From a virus: 20,510 nt of DNA. The stretch lies in IMG/VR virus record IMGVR_UViG_3300008448_000844, positions 1 to 20,510 of that record. One strand, 5' to 3'. Numbering within the stretch: the stretch's first letter is position 1; each line of letters begins with the position of its first letter. The translations under genes were made by a program, and so were the position numbers. Below the pieces are notes generated by a model that saw only the letters and a list, made by a program, of their open reading frames with translations, did no database searches and had not been told where the DNA came from. Of the stretch, positions 858 through 17,956 are shown piece by piece.

Positions 858-1235
858 GTGAACGAACTATTGAAAAACAATTTCCCATTCCTAACCTGCA
901 TCAGATGCAATGAGATTGAGATCGTAGGGATCATAATCAATCAAAATGACAGCGTTTTAAGCATCTACGATTTTGGGGCTATACACAACGACACTGAAAA
1001 ACAGCAACTCTTAGATTTAGGGGATCAGTGGTGGTGGGAAAGCAATCGAAAGATCCCAATTAATATTTTCCTAAAAGGCGAAATGGACTTGTTTCGCAGA
1101 TATATCAAAACACTGAACAGCAAGGATATAGAGCTTGTTTTTGGTCCAGTTGTTAATTTAAATGATATATCAGAAAAAAGGGTTAAACGTAAAAGTATTC
1201 AGCTAGTTCGGTCTGTTAAGAAAACCCGTAGCTGA
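858..1235 (+). CDS. Conserved hypothetical protein, only plus-strand gene
   Basis: A 125-aa protein starting at GTG, the only usual start possible in this stretch because an in-frame TAG lies at 852-854; AGGA at 844-847 is a moderate ribosome site. Motifs seen: 'KNNFPFLTCIRCNE' at the N terminus, 'LGDQWWWESNRKIPINIFL' in the centre, and a basic C terminus (KRVKRKSIQLVRSVKKTRS). I recall a family with the same FPFLTCI / WWWESNR / KRxxIQLV signature in marine T4-like phages, without known function. It converges on and overlaps the mini-DnaE gene tail-to-tail by 20 bp, and its 5' end overlaps the region upstream of the structural gene at 825. A perfect late promoter at 800-807 suggests late expression; as an antisense transcript it could also affect the early run ending at 1216. 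Confidence 0.8.
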   Translation: MNELLKNNFPFLTCIRCNEIEIVGIIINQNDSVLSIYDFGAIHNDTEKQQLLDLGDQWWWESNRKIPINIFLKGEMDLFRRYIKTLNSKDIELVFGPVVNLNDISEKRVKRKSIQLVRSVKKTRS

Positions 1236-1803
1236 TACCTTCACAAATTTTGTTCATTTGAACAACAATAGCGTGGGCATACGCAACTGCGTGACTCTTT
1301 TTAAAACTATAAGAATCGTCTGTCTTTTCCCATATTTCATCTTTAATACTATCCCAACCTTTTGTTTCACAAGTTGGAACTAGGTGTTTCTTACCTGGAC
1401 GTAGTATTGCTAAGAACATGGCTAATTGTTCAATGCTACGTGGCTTTAATCGTGCAATTAAATCATGATAACCATTGACGTGGAAGATTAAGTCACAAAA
1501 TTCTTTTTGTTCTAATAAATCCCATAGTGGTTCAATTTTTAGTAAATTTACAATCTCTTCTTCAGATTTTATATCTTTATAGATACCAACATTTAAAAAG
1601 TCTACTTTAAAGTATCCTCTTTTTTCAGCATCATCATAATCTAAACTGGCAAGACCTGTTAATGGATCAGTTGGGACTTGATGCAAGTAGACACCAGTAT
1701 TGTGTTTTTTGATTTCATCATTATCAATTCTTGATGCAGGAATATGCTTTAACAATTTTAAAGCAATGTCTCTATCAAAAAAATCAATATCAATATCAGG
1801 CAA
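1216..1803 (-). CDS. Miniature C-family DNA polymerase (DnaE palm-like)
   Basis: A 195-aa protein collinear with blocks of bacterial DNA polymerase III alpha. Residues 1-8 (MPDIDIDF) match the DnaE 'MPDFDVDF' motif with the two catalytic aspartates (here D3, D5). 'KHNTGVYLHQVP' (33-44) matches the KHAGGVVIAP region. 'GYFKVDFLNVG' (63-73) matches 'GLVKFDFLGL' with the third catalytic aspartate (D68). Residues 104-137, ending 'LAILRPG', match the DnaE region ending 'ALFRPGP'. 'FKKSHAVAYA' (167-176) matches 'FNKSHSAAYA'. The PHP, thumb, beta-binding, OB and tau-binding parts are absent, as is most of the insert between the first blocks. The start is TTG at 1803: a stop at 1828-1830 blocks extension and AGGAG lies 7 nt upstream. 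It overlaps the zinc-finger gene by 8 bp. Homology is well supported by motif order; activity is unknown. Confidence 0.85.
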   Translation of the reverse strand: MPDIDIDFFDRDIALKLLKHIPASRIDNDEIKKHNTGVYLHQVPTDPLTGLASLDYDDAEKRGYFKVDFLNVGIYKDIKSEEEIVNLLKIEPLWDLLEQKEFCDLIFHVNGYHDLIARLKPRSIEQLAMFLAILRPGKKHLVPTCETKGWDSIKDEIWEKTDDSYSFKKSHAVAYAHAIVVQMNKICEGISYGFS

Positions 1804-2476
1804 TGCCAGTCTCCTTACATATTTCTTTTACCAGTGCAATTTCACTAGGATATGTTTTAAATCTTTTTACCCAATAGGATGGATCAATAATAGTTGCCAC
1901 AATATCTAATTGTTCGTCATTAAATTTTGACAACATATCAGTTCCGCTTTTACAATTTAAAAGTAACCACGGACTAATGAGTCCATCTGCAATTTGTCTA
2001 ACTGCACGATTAATATTAACATAGTTGAAATAGTGTGTAAAATCTGCTTGATTTTCGTCTGCCCATTCCATCATAGTTGACAATGATCTCTGTATGGCAG
2101 CATCAGCTGGTTCTGTTTTTATTATTTCGGATAGATAGGTATAGTAGAGTTCATCGCGGCACCAATGATCGAGCTTAACTCCGGATTTGATAACATAATC
2201 CACAAACTTGTCAGGGTAGATAGGATTAACATTATTGACAAAAGAACCAAACTTAACGAAGGCGTTATAGTAAGGGCTTTTACAAAATTCTTCATACGTT
2301 TTATCTTTTTTAGCATTTTGTGTCAATCTGTAAAATCTATTATATGTCATAAAGCCTGCTTGCACACGCTTCTCATCTTTTTGTAGAGCTCTACGCTTAT
2401 TCTCACACATGTGGGCAACTAAAGTAGCTTCTTTAGTATAGCCTTTACCACAGTGAACACAAGTGTAATTACTCAT
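1796..2476 (-). CDS. Zinc-finger protein conserved in T4-like phages
   Basis: A 226-aa protein with an N-terminal zinc-finger-like motif: C6-x2-C9 and H22-x1-C24 within 'YTCVHCGKGY...VAHMC', followed by a basic helix (ENKRRALQKDEKR). The rest is a globular domain with 'YEEFCKSPYYNAFVKFG' and 'DHWCRDELY', blocks I recall as conserved in marine T4-like phages, function unknown. The frame runs upstream to an ATG at 2533, but the ATG at 2476 is preferred because it places the finger at the N terminus, has a purine-rich ribosome site, and overlaps the previous gene by only 8 bp. It sits in the uvsW unit, directly before the mini-DnaE with which it overlaps, so a nucleic-acid-binding partner role in replication or transcription is a reasonable inference but not shown. 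Confidence 0.8.
   Translation of the reverse strand: MSNYTCVHCGKGYTKEATLVAHMCENKRRALQKDEKRVQAGFMTYNRFYRLTQNAKKDKTYEEFCKSPYYNAFVKFGSFVNNVNPIYPDKFVDYVIKSGVKLDHWCRDELYYTYLSEIIKTEPADAAIQRSLSTMMEWADENQADFTHYFNYVNINRAVRQIADGLISPWLLLNCKSGTDMLSKFNDEQLDIVATIIDPSYWVKRFKTYPSEIALVKEICKETGIA
1811..1815 (-). promoter_or_regulatory. Shine-Dalgarno deciding a TTG start
   Basis: AGGAG on the minus strand, part of a longer AAGGAG, with 7 nt to the TTG at 1803. It lies inside the end of the zinc-finger gene. It fixes the start of the mini-DnaE directly at its catalytic PDxDxDF motif. Confidence 0.75.
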
Positions 2477-2924
2477 ATTCTTTTCTTTGCTTCTTGTCGA
2501 ACCCCAACTGGTCAAATAAACTTTCGATGTCATTTTTATCCATTAAACTTGCTTGTAACTTAACGTCACTCATCTTCATAGCTGGGTTAAGTTCGGCAAT
2601 TAATTTTTCAATTTTAACTGCTTTCTCTTTTTTACCTGCGGCTAGATACGGGTGATATGCTTTTGCACCTGTACCACAACCTGCAAATAATTTCCAAAGT
2701 AGACCTTTGTGATCTTTACTCAATGACCAATGATTCTTATTCACAAGTTCATTGGTCATTTCTACAAACCATTCTTGTACATCTCTGTCACCTTGTACAT
2801 TACTAACATAGCGCATCAAAATATACGGACTAAAAGATTTACGTTCTTCATCAGTCCAATTATTAAATGCGTCTTTATCACGCATATCTACACCATTTAA
2901 TTCTTTCTTAATATCAAGTGCCAT
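2469..2924 (-). CDS. Conserved phage protein, possible clamp-loader small-subunit type
   Basis: A 151-aa helical, charged protein. Visible landmarks are 'FSPYILMRYVSN' near residue 31, 'NKNHWSLSKDHKGLLWKLFAGCG' in the middle, and a C terminus 'DIESLFDQLGFDKKQRKEYE'. The F-x-P-[FY]-I-x-x-R-x-[LV]-S block early in a small helical protein is reminiscent of T4-type gp62 clamp-loader subunits of marine phages, but the similarity is weak and I cannot confirm it, so no symbol is given. It overlaps its upstream neighbour by 11 bp and its downstream neighbour by 8 bp, so it is almost certainly translated as part of the uvsW run. Confidence 0.7.
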   Translation of the reverse strand: MALDIKKELNGVDMRDKDAFNNWTDEERKSFSPYILMRYVSNVQGDRDVQEWFVEMTNELVNKNHWSLSKDHKGLLWKLFAGCGTGAKAYHPYLAAGKKEKAVKIEKLIAELNPAMKMSDVKLQASLMDKNDIESLFDQLGFDKKQRKEYE

Positions 2925-3718: not shown

Positions 3719-5175
3719 TAATATTTCACCTTATCTATTGTAAATGGGTACTTTGCTTCTTTGTAGAATTTTTTACGTTCTGTTAAATGTCTTTTAGCGT
3801 ATTTGGTACTAGCAGTTATATCCCAAATTTGGACGAAGTCTTTGTCTTCCGCTTTTCTAATACCACGTCCAATAGATTGGATAACGCGGACAAAGCTCTT
3901 TCCGGGTTCAATAAGAACCAAATTAAAGATCCTAGGAATATTAAGGCCCACAGCGGCCACACCATAAGTCGCCACAATAATCTTATCATCACTTGTACGT
4001 ACTTCATCATATTCTGTTTTCCTGTCTTTTGTCTTTACAGTGCCATTAACAAAAACACTGTTCGGCAAATTTTCTGTTAAAAACTTTCCACACTCAATTC
4101 TATCAACTAGAACAAGCGTATTACCTGATTCGTTAATGCCAGCTATCATACCAGCAATATGTGCCAGTCTATCCTTGTCAGTTACTAGATATTTTAATTC
4201 TTCTGCGTAACCGCCAAACTCTTTCCATTCTTGTGTTTGGATAACATTAACATGACAATTAGCAAGATGGCCTGCCTCTTGTAGTTCATGTGCCGCAATT
4301 CCACCAACAACTGGTCCTAAACTTGCAACAATGCCCTCAAGTTCATAATGTGCCTTTGGTACTGTGCCTGTTAATCCCCAACGTATTGGACAATGTGCAA
4401 ATGCTCCTGTTAATAAATTTTTTAATACATCTGCTTTAGCCATATGTACTTCGTCAACAATAACACAAACAACGCCTTCAATAAACTCTAACAAGCTCAT
4501 TGCATCGTCTATTTCTTTACCCTTCTTTTCAAGGATATTAAGTGACTGCCAAGTGCAAATTGTGTGTGTCTTGTCTAAGTCTTTACGGTCACCATAATAC
4601 ACACCAACATCTAAACCAACGTTACGATAATCTTCTTCTGTTTGTTCTACAAGTCCTTTGTTTGGTACAATAACAAGTGTACGACCATATTTCTCACACA
4701 TATGACTCATTGTCGCAGTCATAATAGTTTTACCAGCACCAGTCGCAAGTTCCTGTATACTTTGAGGATTTTCAAAGAAACGATTAATTGCATCAGGCTG
4801 GTAATCACGCAACATAATGGGCTCGCCTTCTTTGACGTGTCCCTTAGGCCAAGTTTTACCTTTATCAGACCAATAAGATTCAGTTACTTTTTCAAACTCT
4901 AATTTAATTGGTTTACGTAAGTCTACTAAATCAATATCATATTTGTCTTGCTCAATAATTGGCAAAACTCTGTCTAGCATACTTAGATAAGTTGTACCAC
5001 CTAATCCAAAGAAGCTAACTGTCCCGTCCCAACGTCCTAATTTAAACGCAGGCATATGGCGTGCATACGGCAACTCGTACTTAAACTTAGACACTAATTT
5101 TTTTCTTGTGTCCAAGTCCAAGCCTTCAATTTTTACATTGACTTCATCTTTTAAAATTATTTTACAAGTTGACAA
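3718..5175 (-). CDS. uvsW: UvsW-type DNA/RNA helicase (superfamily 2)
   Basis: About 485 aa, close to T4 UvsW (503). After a short N-terminal substrate-binding domain ('AFKLGRWDGTVSFF', the counterpart of T4 'RFRYGNWDGRIRLL') come the SF2 motifs: 'MLRDYQ', Walker A 'ATGAGKT' (residues about 144-150), 'VDEVHMAK' (DExH, about 240), 'WGLTGT', and motif VI 'QSIGRGIRK'. In T4, UvsW unwinds branched recombination intermediates and R-loops, and it drives the switch away from origin-dependent replication. The frame is open to an ATG at 5265, but this would overlap the previous gene by 104 bp and prepend a hydrophobic stretch absent from the family. The preferred start is TTG at 5175, with AGAGG 6 nt upstream and a 14-bp overlap. 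Confidence 0.93.
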   Translation of the reverse strand: MSTCKIILKDEVNVKIEGLDLDTRKKLVSKFKYELPYARHMPAFKLGRWDGTVSFFGLGGTTYLSMLDRVLPIIEQDKYDIDLVDLRKPIKLEFEKVTESYWSDKGKTWPKGHVKEGEPIMLRDYQPDAINRFFENPQSIQELATGAGKTIMTATMSHMCEKYGRTLVIVPNKGLVEQTEEDYRNVGLDVGVYYGDRKDLDKTHTICTWQSLNILEKKGKEIDDAMSLLEFIEGVVCVIVDEVHMAKADVLKNLLTGAFAHCPIRWGLTGTVPKAHYELEGIVASLGPVVGGIAAHELQEAGHLANCHVNVIQTQEWKEFGGYAEELKYLVTDKDRLAHIAGMIAGINESGNTLVLVDRIECGKFLTENLPNSVFVNGTVKTKDRKTEYDEVRTSDDKIIVATYGVAAVGLNIPRIFNLVLIEPGKSFVRVIQSIGRGIRKAEDKDFVQIWDITASTKYAKRHLTERKKFYKEAKYPFTIDKVKY

Positions 5176-6337
5176 TGTCTGCCTCTGCTGATTTATGTTC
5201 GTTGTACTGCAAAGAAAAAATAGAATTTTTAACGGTATTGATAATACTGTAATGAGATGTAACATATCTGTTTACAAACAAACAGACATCAATATTGTGG
5301 TGATTTTTTAATAAACTTTTTGGAAATTTATTGCTCAAAAATACCCAATTGGGAGCAGAAGACGCTTCTTTATTCAAACCAAAGTCTTTAATCACTTTAT
5401 TAAAAGTGACGCCGTCCTCTTCATTTTTTCTTCTAAAAAATACGCCTATTTGATCTAAGCTAACTCCAACATTGATTAGATCACTAACCCATTCATTTAA
5501 AGTATCTGCACTAATATTTTCGTCAACAAATACAGCAGTATTCACGTTCATTTCTTTAATTAAAGAAAGAACTTCTGTCCTAGAGTGCTTTGCTTTGTCA
5601 ATAAAGAATTTTTGATTATGACTTTGTTCGTATATTTTGTACAAAGAATTTAATTTGATTAGTTCTGATATTTCATCAGCAACATTGTCTGCATAAATGT
5701 GAACACCTAATTTAGTACTTTCAATTAATGCTGATTTTAAATCGTTTGTTTCAAAATCACTCTTAATATTTTTAAATTTATAACTATCGTTTTCTTTTAT
5801 TAATGTTGGCACAAAATTTTCAAATTCATCTTTGATTTGATTATATTTGTCAATATAGTTTTTGATTTCGTCATCAATAACAAAACTATCAGACAAATTG
5901 TCTAATATAAAGGCCAAACTGACTTCGTTTAGATCCAGTGTCCAGTTTTTATTATCAGGATCCCATTCAGCTCTGGTGAGCTTTTCTTTAGTATTAAGTG
6001 TTCTAAACAATGTTAACAAATTTTGATCAAAGGGAAACTTAATAATAAATCTTTTAGAAATTGGATCTAATGTAACAGATTTTGTGTTATCAATAGTTCT
6101 TAAATTAAATTTATAAACTGGAGTCTCTAACATATTTTCTATGTCAGTGACGCCAATTTTTTTAAATTGATTTCGATATTTTTTGACAAGTCGTAAAGCA
6201 ATATCGGCCTGTTTATGCGTAAATGCTTTACCATTGAAAATTTGGTTAGCTAGACTTTGAGATATTTTTTCATCAAAGTTACTGACGTGTATACGTCCTA
6301 AACCAAACTGTTCGACTAAATCTTCAATATATTTCAT
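5162..6337 (-). CDS. HARP-like domain protein next to uvsW, motor-less helicase relative?
   Basis: A 391-aa protein with three regions. Residues about 20-60 ('SLANQIFNGKAFTHKQADIA...VKKY') resemble the short N-terminal helix region found in front of some phage SF2 helicases. Residues about 88-148 ('KRFIIKFPFDQ', then 'AEWDPDNKNWTLDL') have the pattern of the HARP/SMARCAL1 DNA-annealing domain, in which a pair of tryptophans frames a WxxxxKxW motif. The C-terminal part contains 'TAVFVDENISADTLNEWVSDL' and 'PNWVFLSNKFPKSLLKN', with a RecA-like alternation of strands and helices, but no Walker A or DExx motif is visible anywhere. It heads a seven-gene unit under a consensus promoter, with the ATG 6 nt after the -10 and no Shine-Dalgarno. 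The domain call is an inference from pattern; it may equally be a family of its own. Confidence 0.75.
   Translation of the reverse strand: MKYIEDLVEQFGLGRIHVSNFDEKISQSLANQIFNGKAFTHKQADIALRLVKKYRNQFKKIGVTDIENMLETPVYKFNLRTIDNTKSVTLDPISKRFIIKFPFDQNLLTLFRTLNTKEKLTRAEWDPDNKNWTLDLNEVSLAFILDNLSDSFVIDDEIKNYIDKYNQIKDEFENFVPTLIKENDSYKFKNIKSDFETNDLKSALIESTKLGVHIYADNVADEISELIKLNSLYKIYEQSHNQKFFIDKAKHSRTEVLSLIKEMNVNTAVFVDENISADTLNEWVSDLINVGVSLDQIGVFFRRKNEEDGVTFNKVIKDFGLNKEASSAPNWVFLSNKFPKSLLKNHHNIDVCLFVNRYVTSHYSIINTVKNSIFSLQYNEHKSAEADIVNL
5182..5186 (-). promoter_or_regulatory. Shine-Dalgarno supporting the TTG start of uvsW
   Basis: AGAGG on the minus strand, 6 nt before the TTG at 5175, inside the last codons of the upstream gene. 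It is the reason for choosing TTG rather than the distant ATG at 5265. Confidence 0.55.
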
Positions 6338-15310: not shown

Positions 15311-17956
15311 TTACCTTCTAGATAAATGTTTAATTCTTTCTAACTCAGAAGATGGATCTTCTTTAACAGCGCGAGCAACATTTGTTGCCATTGCTGCCGC
15401 ATCTCTTTTATTGACATCTCCTAGTTTATCAGCGGCCCATTGCACACCGTCACCAGCTTTGTCAACTCCAGCAGAAAATGCAATATCTCCTGCTAGTGCT
15501 TTTCCACCACCTTTTAATAAATCTGCTTTGCTATTAGCTTGATTTGCCAGTGCTCTAGCTTCTGGACTAGTTGCTACAGCTTTTACTCCTTGTGCAACAT
15601 TTTTGCCACCTTGATAAGTCTTATGTAACATATTAGCTAAACGACCACCACGGGCAACAGCCGCTGTGCCTGCAATAGGTGCGGCTAATCCGCCAGTTGC
15701 GTAGGTTGCTAGGGCACCAAGACCTGTGATTCCAGCATCAATGGCTAGATCCTTATAATCATAATCAAAGTCTGGATGTAGTCTGTCACTCATACTCCAT
15801 TCTATCAGTTCGTCTTTTAAAGAGTTTAATTGCAAAGACATTTCTTTTAAAGTTAGATCTTCCTTGACACTACCAGCGGCATGTTGGAGTGCTGGCGCAA
15901 TGTCCTTCCCATCTTTTTGATCCTGTGCAATCATTTTTTGTAAATCGTTGGCACTTATTGTTGTTAAATCAATGTTACCTGGTGTAGAAGATTTTGTTCG
16001 TAGTCTATTACCAGTATTTTGAGATGATTGATCAGCAGGCTGTCCTCTAAGGGCTTGTAATCTAGCAAGATCATCTGCGCTAATTATTTGCGATCTTTGT
16101 CTATCATAGATTGCTTTGCCTTCTGCACTATCACTTGCAGGACCAATCCATCCAAGACCTGGACGCTCTTTGAATCCTTGTCCTGCTACTGTATCATCAA
16201 TCTCCCAGCTACCATGCACTGGATGTTGACCAGCGGGGGCGGCACGCCATCTCATTACATTACCAGTCTTAGGATCAACATCTCTGTCACCTTGTTTTAA
16301 ATCAAAATGGCTTTTTTTCATGTTACCTGTGGAAACTCGAAGAGAACTAGGATCAGATGATCCATATCTTGCCATTAAGTCTTTGTCTCGTTGTCTACCT
16401 TGAGCCGCTGCCAAATCGTCTAATCTTTTCTTTTCGGCTGCTAGAACTTCTTGATCTTTTCTTTCTTGTTCTTGTTTAGCATCGTCTGCCGCACGTTGTT
16501 CTGGAGTCCTTGGTACTAGACTAAAATCTGTTTTGGGCATTTCTGGGACTACATACTTACCGTCTTTATCAAATGTCATGGTAGTACCATCTTTAAAATG
16601 AACGGTTCTACCTTTTCCTTCACCTGGCACTATTTTAGCTACGTCTTTTTCATCATAAAAGGTATTGGTGCCGCCAGTAGCACTTGGAACAACAGCGGCC
16701 TGGGCAGCACCATTGCCGCCACCACCAGTAGTTACAGTAGCAGTGCCATCTACCTTGCCATCTACCTTGCCATCTACCTTGCCATCACCTCCACCGCTAG
16801 GATTTTGTCTAAAGTGAGCTAATAATGCTAGATTTGCTGCCGCGGTGCCTGCGGTATATTTTCCTTTACCTAATATAGAATCAACTTTCTCTTGATTTAA
16901 TCTATCAGTTCTATTTTTAAATGCACCATTACTTGCTAAGGCTAGTTGTGCTCCTACACTTGTTCCTGTAGACGTGCCAGTACTTGCACCGCCTGCATCA
17001 TTTTTACCGCCTTTACCGTCTTTACCGTCTTTACCGCCTTCAGCTTCCCTACGTTTCTTTTCTTCGGCTGCGGCGGCTTCTTTTCTTTTCCTTTCAGCTT
17101 CAGCATCCTCTTCTCTTTTTTTCCTTGCGGCTTCTTCCTCTTCTCTTTTTTTCCTTGCGGCTTCCTCTTCATCTTTTTTCTTTTTTGCGTCAGCTGAATT
17201 TGTATCAGATGCTGGAGGACGTTCTTGTGCCGAACTATCAGCTGACGCCCCTCGCTTAGGATCAGCGGCCTTGGCTAGTTTCCATGTATTTGCATCAAGA
17301 TTGTCTACAATTTGTTGTCTCAAATTTTCATCCGATACTTTCCATATATCGCCTGGATTTTTTTTAACGTGAGCAATGTAAGCTCTCATTCTTCTAGCAT
17401 CAGCACTATCACCGGTAGCAACGTCTTTATACGATTTGACGGTGTCCTTTCTATCTCTAATTATTTCCCACCATTCTTTTCTTCTTGCTTCTTCTAGTGG
17501 TTCACCTGGCTTAGGTGTGTCAATTTTTCTAGGACCTTGTTCAACATCTTTTTGTTGTTGTACACTAGCACTGGTGTTAGGTTGTATAGTTGGCTGTGAA
17601 GGCTGTGTTCGTTGACCAGCAACTGCTCCTAGAGCCGCCTTCATAAGTTCAATGTCTTTTTTTGGATCACTATATTTGGCTGGCTCAGCATCTGGCTTTT
17701 GATTTGGAAACTGTAGTGCCTTTAATTGTTCTGGCGACAACTGATTAGGTTTATCGTAATCTGGTTGTTTGCCAGGAATTTTGTCTTGTGCATTAGGAGA
17801 AATTGAAGTAGGATTTTGATCAACTTCAGAACCTGTTGGACTAGTACCCTGCATCTTTGACATTTTATTTGCCATTACCAGATCTGGCATTGACATCTTA
17901 TCTGGCATTGACTGATCTAATTCATCTAATCTAGTAAAGAGTTCTCTAAAATTCAT
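15311..17956 (-). CDS. Large low-complexity virion protein with leader peptide, 881 aa
   Basis: The N terminus 'MNFRELFTRLDELDQS' looks like a capsid-targeting leader with a possible protease site after LDE (residues 10-12). A disordered Pro/Gln/Lys region follows, then a small folded block around 'RRKEWWEIIRDRKDTVKSYKD', a strongly charged helix of repeated AARKKREEE units (about 255-294), a short Gly-rich collagen-like run (GKDGKDGKGG), four VDG/GK units (16745-16786), another charged coil, and a Gly/Ala-rich hydrophobic segment 'AIDAGITGLGALATYATGG' (about 743-762), ending 'SSELERIKHLSRR'. There is no enzymatic motif. Three copies of the same design (leader, coils, Gly/Ala segment) in this region suggest internal head or DNA-ejected proteins. 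The ATG follows the 194-aa gene by 2 nt. Confidence 0.78.
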   Translation of the reverse strand: MNFRELFTRLDELDQSMPDKMSMPDLVMANKMSKMQGTSPTGSEVDQNPTSISPNAQDKIPGKQPDYDKPNQLSPEQLKALQFPNQKPDAEPAKYSDPKKDIELMKAALGAVAGQRTQPSQPTIQPNTSASVQQQKDVEQGPRKIDTPKPGEPLEEARRKEWWEIIRDRKDTVKSYKDVATGDSADARRMRAYIAHVKKNPGDIWKVSDENLRQQIVDNLDANTWKLAKAADPKRGASADSSAQERPPASDTNSADAKKKKDEEEAARKKREEEEAARKKREEDAEAERKRKEAAAAEEKKRREAEGGKDGKDGKGGKNDAGGASTGTSTGTSVGAQLALASNGAFKNRTDRLNQEKVDSILGKGKYTAGTAAANLALLAHFRQNPSGGGDGKVDGKVDGKVDGTATVTTGGGGNGAAQAAVVPSATGGTNTFYDEKDVAKIVPGEGKGRTVHFKDGTTMTFDKDGKYVVPEMPKTDFSLVPRTPEQRAADDAKQEQERKDQEVLAAEKKRLDDLAAAQGRQRDKDLMARYGSSDPSSLRVSTGNMKKSHFDLKQGDRDVDPKTGNVMRWRAAPAGQHPVHGSWEIDDTVAGQGFKERPGLGWIGPASDSAEGKAIYDRQRSQIISADDLARLQALRGQPADQSSQNTGNRLRTKSSTPGNIDLTTISANDLQKMIAQDQKDGKDIAPALQHAAGSVKEDLTLKEMSLQLNSLKDELIEWSMSDRLHPDFDYDYKDLAIDAGITGLGALATYATGGLAAPIAGTAAVARGGRLANMLHKTYQGGKNVAQGVKAVATSPEARALANQANSKADLLKGGGKALAGDIAFSAGVDKAGDGVQWAADKLGDVNKRDAAAMATNVARAVKEDPSSELERIKHLSRR
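16745..16786 (-). repeat. 12-bp tandem repeat, 3.5 copies
   Basis: The unit GCCATCTACCTT on the plus strand is repeated exactly at 16745, 16757 and 16769, with a half copy at 16781. It codes for GKVD units in the 881-aa protein. Perfect identity indicates recent slippage, so copy number may vary between relatives. Confidence 0.95.
17003..17038 (-). repeat. 9-bp repeats coding a collagen-like Gly-Lys-x run
   Basis: Four 9-bp units (TTTACCGCC or TTTACCGTC on the plus strand) code for a GGKDGKDGKGGK stretch, a minimal Gly-x-y repeat. Confidence 0.85.
17106..17164 (-). repeat. 30-bp direct repeat coding a charged helix
   Basis: A 29-base identical segment occurs at 17106-17134 and 17136-17164 (period 30), coding AARKKREEE-type decapeptides of a predicted single alpha helix or coiled coil in the 881-aa protein. 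Confidence 0.85.

Follow-up and report, generated by a model that had tools for sequence, protein, structure and literature searches.

A strongly conserved phage gene as the probable C-terminal half of a split, minimal DNA polymerase III alpha

The small gene analysed here lies on a metagenomic viral fragment of 20,510 nucleotides (IMG/VR record IMGVR_UViG_3300008448_000844, hereafter the window) and is very probably the C-terminal half (C-half) of a split enzyme of the DNA polymerase III type, the other half (N-half) being a separate gene in related phages. Since Iyer et al. had described a split minimal Pol III in jumbo phages, the window gene represents a further member of a known system. 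In that description, the group 2.2 jumbo phages have a phage-specific minimal Pol III alpha, made up of an N-terminal NTP-binding protein and a C-terminal Mg- and template-binding protein encoded by distant genes; it occurs alongside a family-B polymerase and may have been left over from an ancestral form (Iyer et al., 2021; PMC7824862). The family studied here has the same two-piece layout, the same profiles (PHROG 11127 and PHROG 11778) and the same co-resident family-B polymerase, and genomes of that system (among them Atu_ph07, CBB, RaK2, PA5oct, and 121Q) contain homologues. Unlike those members, the window copy comes from a metagenomic fragment beyond which its N-half would lie, and it is less than 50% identical to the C-half of any named phage. 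To the earlier account the present analysis adds the exact seam between the halves, their pairing in 17 records, residue invariance and dN/dS values, as well as the missing fingers segment, a 141-kb non-jumbo genome (Slicko01), and the conserved neighbourhood.

A small, conserved gene related to DnaE

Inspection of the open reading frame and its upstream sequence placed the gene and its start where a preliminary description, made from the letters alone, had put them: the TTG start has AGGAG 7 bases upstream, and extension is blocked by an in-frame stop 9 codons upstream (Table 1). Most C-half relatives share this start site, there as ATG. Over its whole length the gene product matches the PHROG 11778 profile (annotated as 'DNA polymerase', 197 positions; E=1.2e-66), and it also matches PHROG 405, the profile of full-length phage DnaE, at E=6e-6; the only Pfam match is a weak one, below cut-off, to the fingers family PF17657 (E=0.008). 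Judged by sequence comparison, the homology to DnaE exceeds chance.

Table 1. Features of the window discussed in the text (positions are those of the window)
Feature	Position	Strand	Remarks
C-terminal half of split minimal DNA polymerase III alpha (PHROG 11778), very probable	1216..1803	-	195 aa
First catalytic motif LPDIDID (D3, D5; D7 = DnaE-specific D405)	1783..1803	-	invariant 53/53
KVDFL motif (residues 66-70), containing the third catalytic Asp D68 (E. coli D555) and the invariant K66	1594..1608	-	
YSFKKSHAVAYAH, residues 165-177, fingers motif at the incoming-nucleotide pocket	1273..1311	-	
C2H2 zinc-finger-like protein (PHROG 11058, unknown function)	1796..2533	-	overlaps C-half start by 8 bases
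Small convergent gene (PHROG 11637, unknown function)	858..1235	+	overlaps C-half 3' end by 20 bases
391-aa ORF between UvsY and UvsW, without PHROG match	5162..6337	-	overlaps UvsW ORF start by 104 bases
881-aa ORF, without PHROG match	15311..17956	-	long low-complexity K/E/A-rich stretch

About 80 C-half loci were retained from IMG/VR, and 91 of 50,697 phage records gave matches. The named phages that carry the gene are mostly jumbo myoviruses (RaK2, CBB, GAP32, 121Q, PBECO4, PA5oct, Atu_ph07, SCTP-2, and Phosso). Values of dN/dS in the family range from 0.02 to 0.30, with a median of 0.09, and the window copy gave 0.073 and 0.064 against two relatives (L003 and L045). The proposal that the conserved catalytic set reflects selection was thus borne out, with strong purifying selection (dN/dS about 0.07-0.1) and aspartates that are constant in all sequences aligned, and the ORF is a genuine, strongly conserved gene. 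The C-half was also seen on twelve GTDB MAG contigs (L195-L206) assigned to unrelated bacteria and archaea, which are probably jumbo-phage DNA binned into MAGs; as these contigs resemble phage DNA and no plasmid match was found, a host or plasmid gene was rejected.

The five DnaE blocks recognised at the outset do map in order onto E. coli DnaE, with PDIDIDF at 400-406, KHxxGV at 510-515, KxDFL at 553-557, LRPG at about 641, and FKKSHAxAYA at 756-765. By profile match and alignment, the counterparts of D3, D5, and D68 in E. coli are D401, D403, and D555, which bind metal and are absolutely conserved in C-family polymerases (PMC3919608), and that of D7 is D405. In a set of 53 C-half sequences, which takes in named phages at about 35% identity, eleven positions never vary: the three catalytic aspartates said to be kept, and likewise D7, together with H34, G37, K66, R135, P136, H171, and Y175. 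The last two belong to the fingers motif YSFKKSHAVAYAH, in which F167 is found in 51 of the 53 sequences. The position of D405 is conserved in DnaE but is Asn in PolC, the C-family replicase of Gram-positive bacteria (PMC3919608); its invariant Asp marks the C-half as DnaE-type. PolC nevertheless has the same catalytic aspartates, and its Y-x-F...Y nucleotide-pocket spacing recurs in the C-half, where the Y, F, and Y around FKKSHAxAY are spaced exactly as PolC Y1274, F1276, and Y1284, suggesting that they are equivalents of these residues; F1276 helps position the incoming nucleotide (PMC12592400).

Fold comparisons gave the same picture. When a profile of 41 C-half relatives was searched against PDB chains, each of the nine sequences found at E<=1 was a DNA polymerase III alpha, and the matching segments fell on E. 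coli DnaE 399-420, about 554-641, and 746-768. An AlphaFold model of the C-half (pLDDT 87) returned Pol III alpha as all of its ten best Foldseek matches, seven of them at probability 0.95-1.00, with noise from rank 11 onward; in both kinds of search, the matches above noise were to Pol III alpha alone. The C-half ends near E. coli position 770, and its alignment contains no counterpart of about 421-509 (the thumb) or of about 642-745 (the fingers helices with YQEQVM and LRRAMGKK). What it shares with bacterial DnaE is therefore the set of palm catalytic motifs, part of the fingers, and the DnaE-specific aspartate, whereas the PHP domain, the thumb, the YQEQVM/LRRAMGKK segment, and the clamp-binding, tau-binding, and OB regions are all absent from the split enzyme, which moreover consists of two genes. 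Neither half matches E. coli 1-319 or 421-509, where the PHP domain and thumb lie. The one clamp-like pentapeptide in the C-half, QLAMF at 126-130, is present in 10 of 41 relatives and sits at the position of a DnaE fingers helix, so that no clamp motif occurs at an equivalent position. With the PHP, clamp-binding, and tau-binding parts absent as well, the suggestion that the protein is a decoy for the host clamp or clamp loader was abandoned.

The N-half and the pairing of the two genes

It had been thought that everything else of the enzyme was missing; instead, a separate gene encodes the palm segment that precedes the C-half. A search with PF07733 found one further gene of about 170 aa per record in eight near-complete relatives, above the curated cut-off. 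This N-half family corresponds to PHROG 11127 (about 170 aa, with the triphosphate-binding GRGSS); its members contain WGVGRGSSVxSYVLYLIGVHxxDSIKYxLDxxEFL and then stop. A single-sequence search recovered six loci and an alignment search at least 600 rows, and GRGSS is invariant in 48 of 48 N-half sequences (median dN/dS 0.12). Against the PDB, the N-half profile matches Pol III alpha alone, covering E. coli 320-393, and in a Foldseek search with its AlphaFold model only Pol III stood above noise (DnaE and PolC at the top, with high probability and weak E-values, the best being 0.06). One member, CBB_328, had been noted in the CBB paper as a truncated alpha subunit of 172 aa (PMC5259590). In the genomes inspected, the neighbours of the N-half are a GroES-like gene, a gp44-like clamp loader or other AAA ATPase, and/or PhoH.

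On E. coli DnaE the two halves lie side by side with no overlap. Residue 393 is the last one covered by the N-half profile and residue 399 the first of the C-half, and on the PHROG 405 profile (1190 positions) the N-half takes up 357-437 and the C-half 433-455, 576-679, and 761-809. It is this split that makes the C-half gene begin with the first catalytic motif. A search of ten relatives with PHROG 405 gave no convincing Pol III alpha piece beyond these two tiles (the one weak match, in Phosso, had an E-value of 0.01), and the idea of a third fragment elsewhere in the genome was dropped. No fusion of the halves was seen among the approximately 80 C-half loci; a 405-aa frame considered as a fused variant (in G016) has a weak PHROG 11778 match (E 3e-4) and lacks the motifs, and was judged a chance hit.

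Exactly one N-half and one C-half were present in all ten records of at least 270 kb, and seven further phages with a C-half, one of them the 141-kb Alishewanella phage Slicko01, have one N-half each; all 17 C-half genomes or long contigs checked therefore have the N-half as a single copy. This co-occurrence within one phage lineage partly reflects shared ancestry. In most complete relatives, the N-half gene lies tens to hundreds of kilobases from the C-half, and, as such a distance would predict, shorter contigs usually show one half alone. In Slicko01 (L188), both halves lie within 12 kb; given the size of this genome, the pair is not confined to jumbo phages. The N-half is found neither in the 20.5-kb window record nor in a 66.7-kb contig with an identical C-half; neither reaches the N-half locus, and we infer the partner in the window's phage from its relatives. 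The expectation that the gene occurs in phages with a B-family polymerase was confirmed in 11 of 11 C-half relatives checked, all of them among these 17 records; in the window's case, the family-B locus would lie outside the fragment. The family-B polymerase is itself in two open frames in Atu_ph07 (578+418 aa), PA5oct, Slicko01, and one further genome (G003, L066 record).

Other divided DnaE enzymes have been recorded. In Cellulophaga phage phi13:1 (L208, KC821625), gp038 and gp039 make up a DnaE divided into two proteins near the same place, but there the genes are adjacent and together near full length (525 + 673 aa). Cyanobacterial DnaE is also encoded in two pieces, which carry split inteins (PMC3919608). 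The phage pair differs in that most C-halves start within a few residues of the catalytic motif and the N-half ends in EFLK or EFLR; this leaves no room for an intein in either half, and a split intein at the seam was rejected.

Genomic neighbourhood of the C-half

In the window, the C-half comes after gp32, UvsX, UvsY, UvsW, and the zinc-finger gene. The block uvsW, 168-aa gene, 151-aa gene, zinc-finger gene, C-half, and convergent gene is found in nearly all sufficiently long IMG/VR loci, and in named phages it runs on to the gp61 primase and gp41 helicase. All 64 eligible loci have the zinc-finger gene upstream of the C-half, and the PHROG 11637 gene is tail-to-tail with it in 72 of 72 eligible IMG/VR loci. 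The preliminary description offered, as one option, a product-binding protein working with the overlapping zinc-finger protein. The two genes do form a conserved neighbourhood, but the entire block starting at uvsW is conserved to almost the same degree; lying next to each other is therefore weak evidence of coupling by itself, and a special coupling to either the zinc-finger or the convergent gene was not retained. The PHROG 11637 protein has an FPFLT...WWW[QE]SNRxIP motif and a basic KRIKRR tail. Its gene occurs in 85 phage records, a set almost identical to that of the C-half; a convergent gene follows the C-half in the 12 named phages checked (in two with one gene between), and in 11 of the 12 phmmer detects homology to the window copy.

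Proposed activity and alternative readings

The reading we favour, and consider fairly likely, is that the two halves rebuild a DNA nucleotidyltransferase of low processivity that would fill gaps or perform synthesis linked to recombination, the replicase being the family-B enzyme. The C-half would supply the metal-binding palm strands and part of the fingers of a minimal, DnaE-type C-family nucleotidyltransferase, and the N-half the helical palm segment with its triphosphate-binding GRGSS loop. We infer that the halves physically assemble; they would associate non-covalently to form one active site, with three aspartates from the C-half, GRGSS from the N-half, and nucleotide-pocket residues from FKKSHAxAY. 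Having neither the thumb nor most of the fingers, nor any clamp, tau, or PHP part, such an enzyme would add nucleotides distributively, and its most likely job would be the filling of short gaps, or synthesis linked to recombination or repair, alongside gp43. The reading is supported by the homology, the complementarity of the halves, their pairing in genomes, residue invariance, purifying selection, and the predicted folds, and a replication and recombination context is supported by the location of the C-half in a conserved block with UvsX, UvsY, UvsW, gp61, and gp41. No experimental test of the split pair was found in the literature searched. The split enzyme is probably catalytically active; for accessory DNA synthesis as its role, the case is about evenly balanced.

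With the thumb and fingers helices lacking a counterpart, conventional template copying may be impossible. A bolder version, which we regard as speculative, has two proteins of roughly 170-195 aa come together in trans as a C-family polymerase without a thumb, dedicated to gap-filling, recombination-coupled, or template-independent synthesis and possibly joined by a third, DNA-binding partner, the PHROG 11637 protein. It is similarly unlikely that the pair, its fingers mostly lost, is no DNA-copying polymerase but a nucleotidyltransferase adding nucleotides untemplated to DNA ends, RNA, or protein. The loss of the thumb and YQEQVM/LRRAMGKK segment with all palm catalytic residues kept fits this reading, as does the pol-beta-like fold, which is common to template-independent transferases; however, the fingers residues beside the incoming base (F167, H171, and Y175) are conserved, and the C-half gene sits among replication and recombination genes. 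Less probable still is a catalytically dead scaffold or regulator with the shape of DnaE, such as a decoy or organiser in the phage replisome. The large losses relative to DnaE and the absence of activity reports from the literature searched would suit this, but the catalytic aspartates, K66, and GRGSS are invariant at identities down to about 35%, and a decoy would need the clamp, tau, and PHP regions, which are gone.

The main proposal of the preliminary description, that the 195-aa protein alone is a complete miniature polymerase or terminal transferase, survives in part. The protein is a DnaE derivative under strong selection, with all three metal-binding aspartates and a confident predicted fold by itself, but a stand-alone enzyme is very improbable, since the GRGSS-bearing palm segment is a separate gene conserved in every checked genome. 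A recent pseudogene or leftover piece of a degraded DnaE gene, which small size and a TTG start might suggest, is refuted by the dN/dS of about 0.07 against near relatives and by the roughly 80 contigs and 91 phage records that share its boundaries.

C-family polymerases copy every bacterial chromosome, and we know of no definition of their minimal working core. These phages retain the palm and a scrap of the fingers alone, in two strongly selected genes, beside a complete family-B replicase. An active pair would define the minimal core of the C family and mean that large phages have a second polymerase; a pair that copies no template would represent a new use of the C-family fold. Should the thumb-less two-protein enzyme prove real, it would rank as the smallest C-family enzyme that works and offer a model of the ancestral core.
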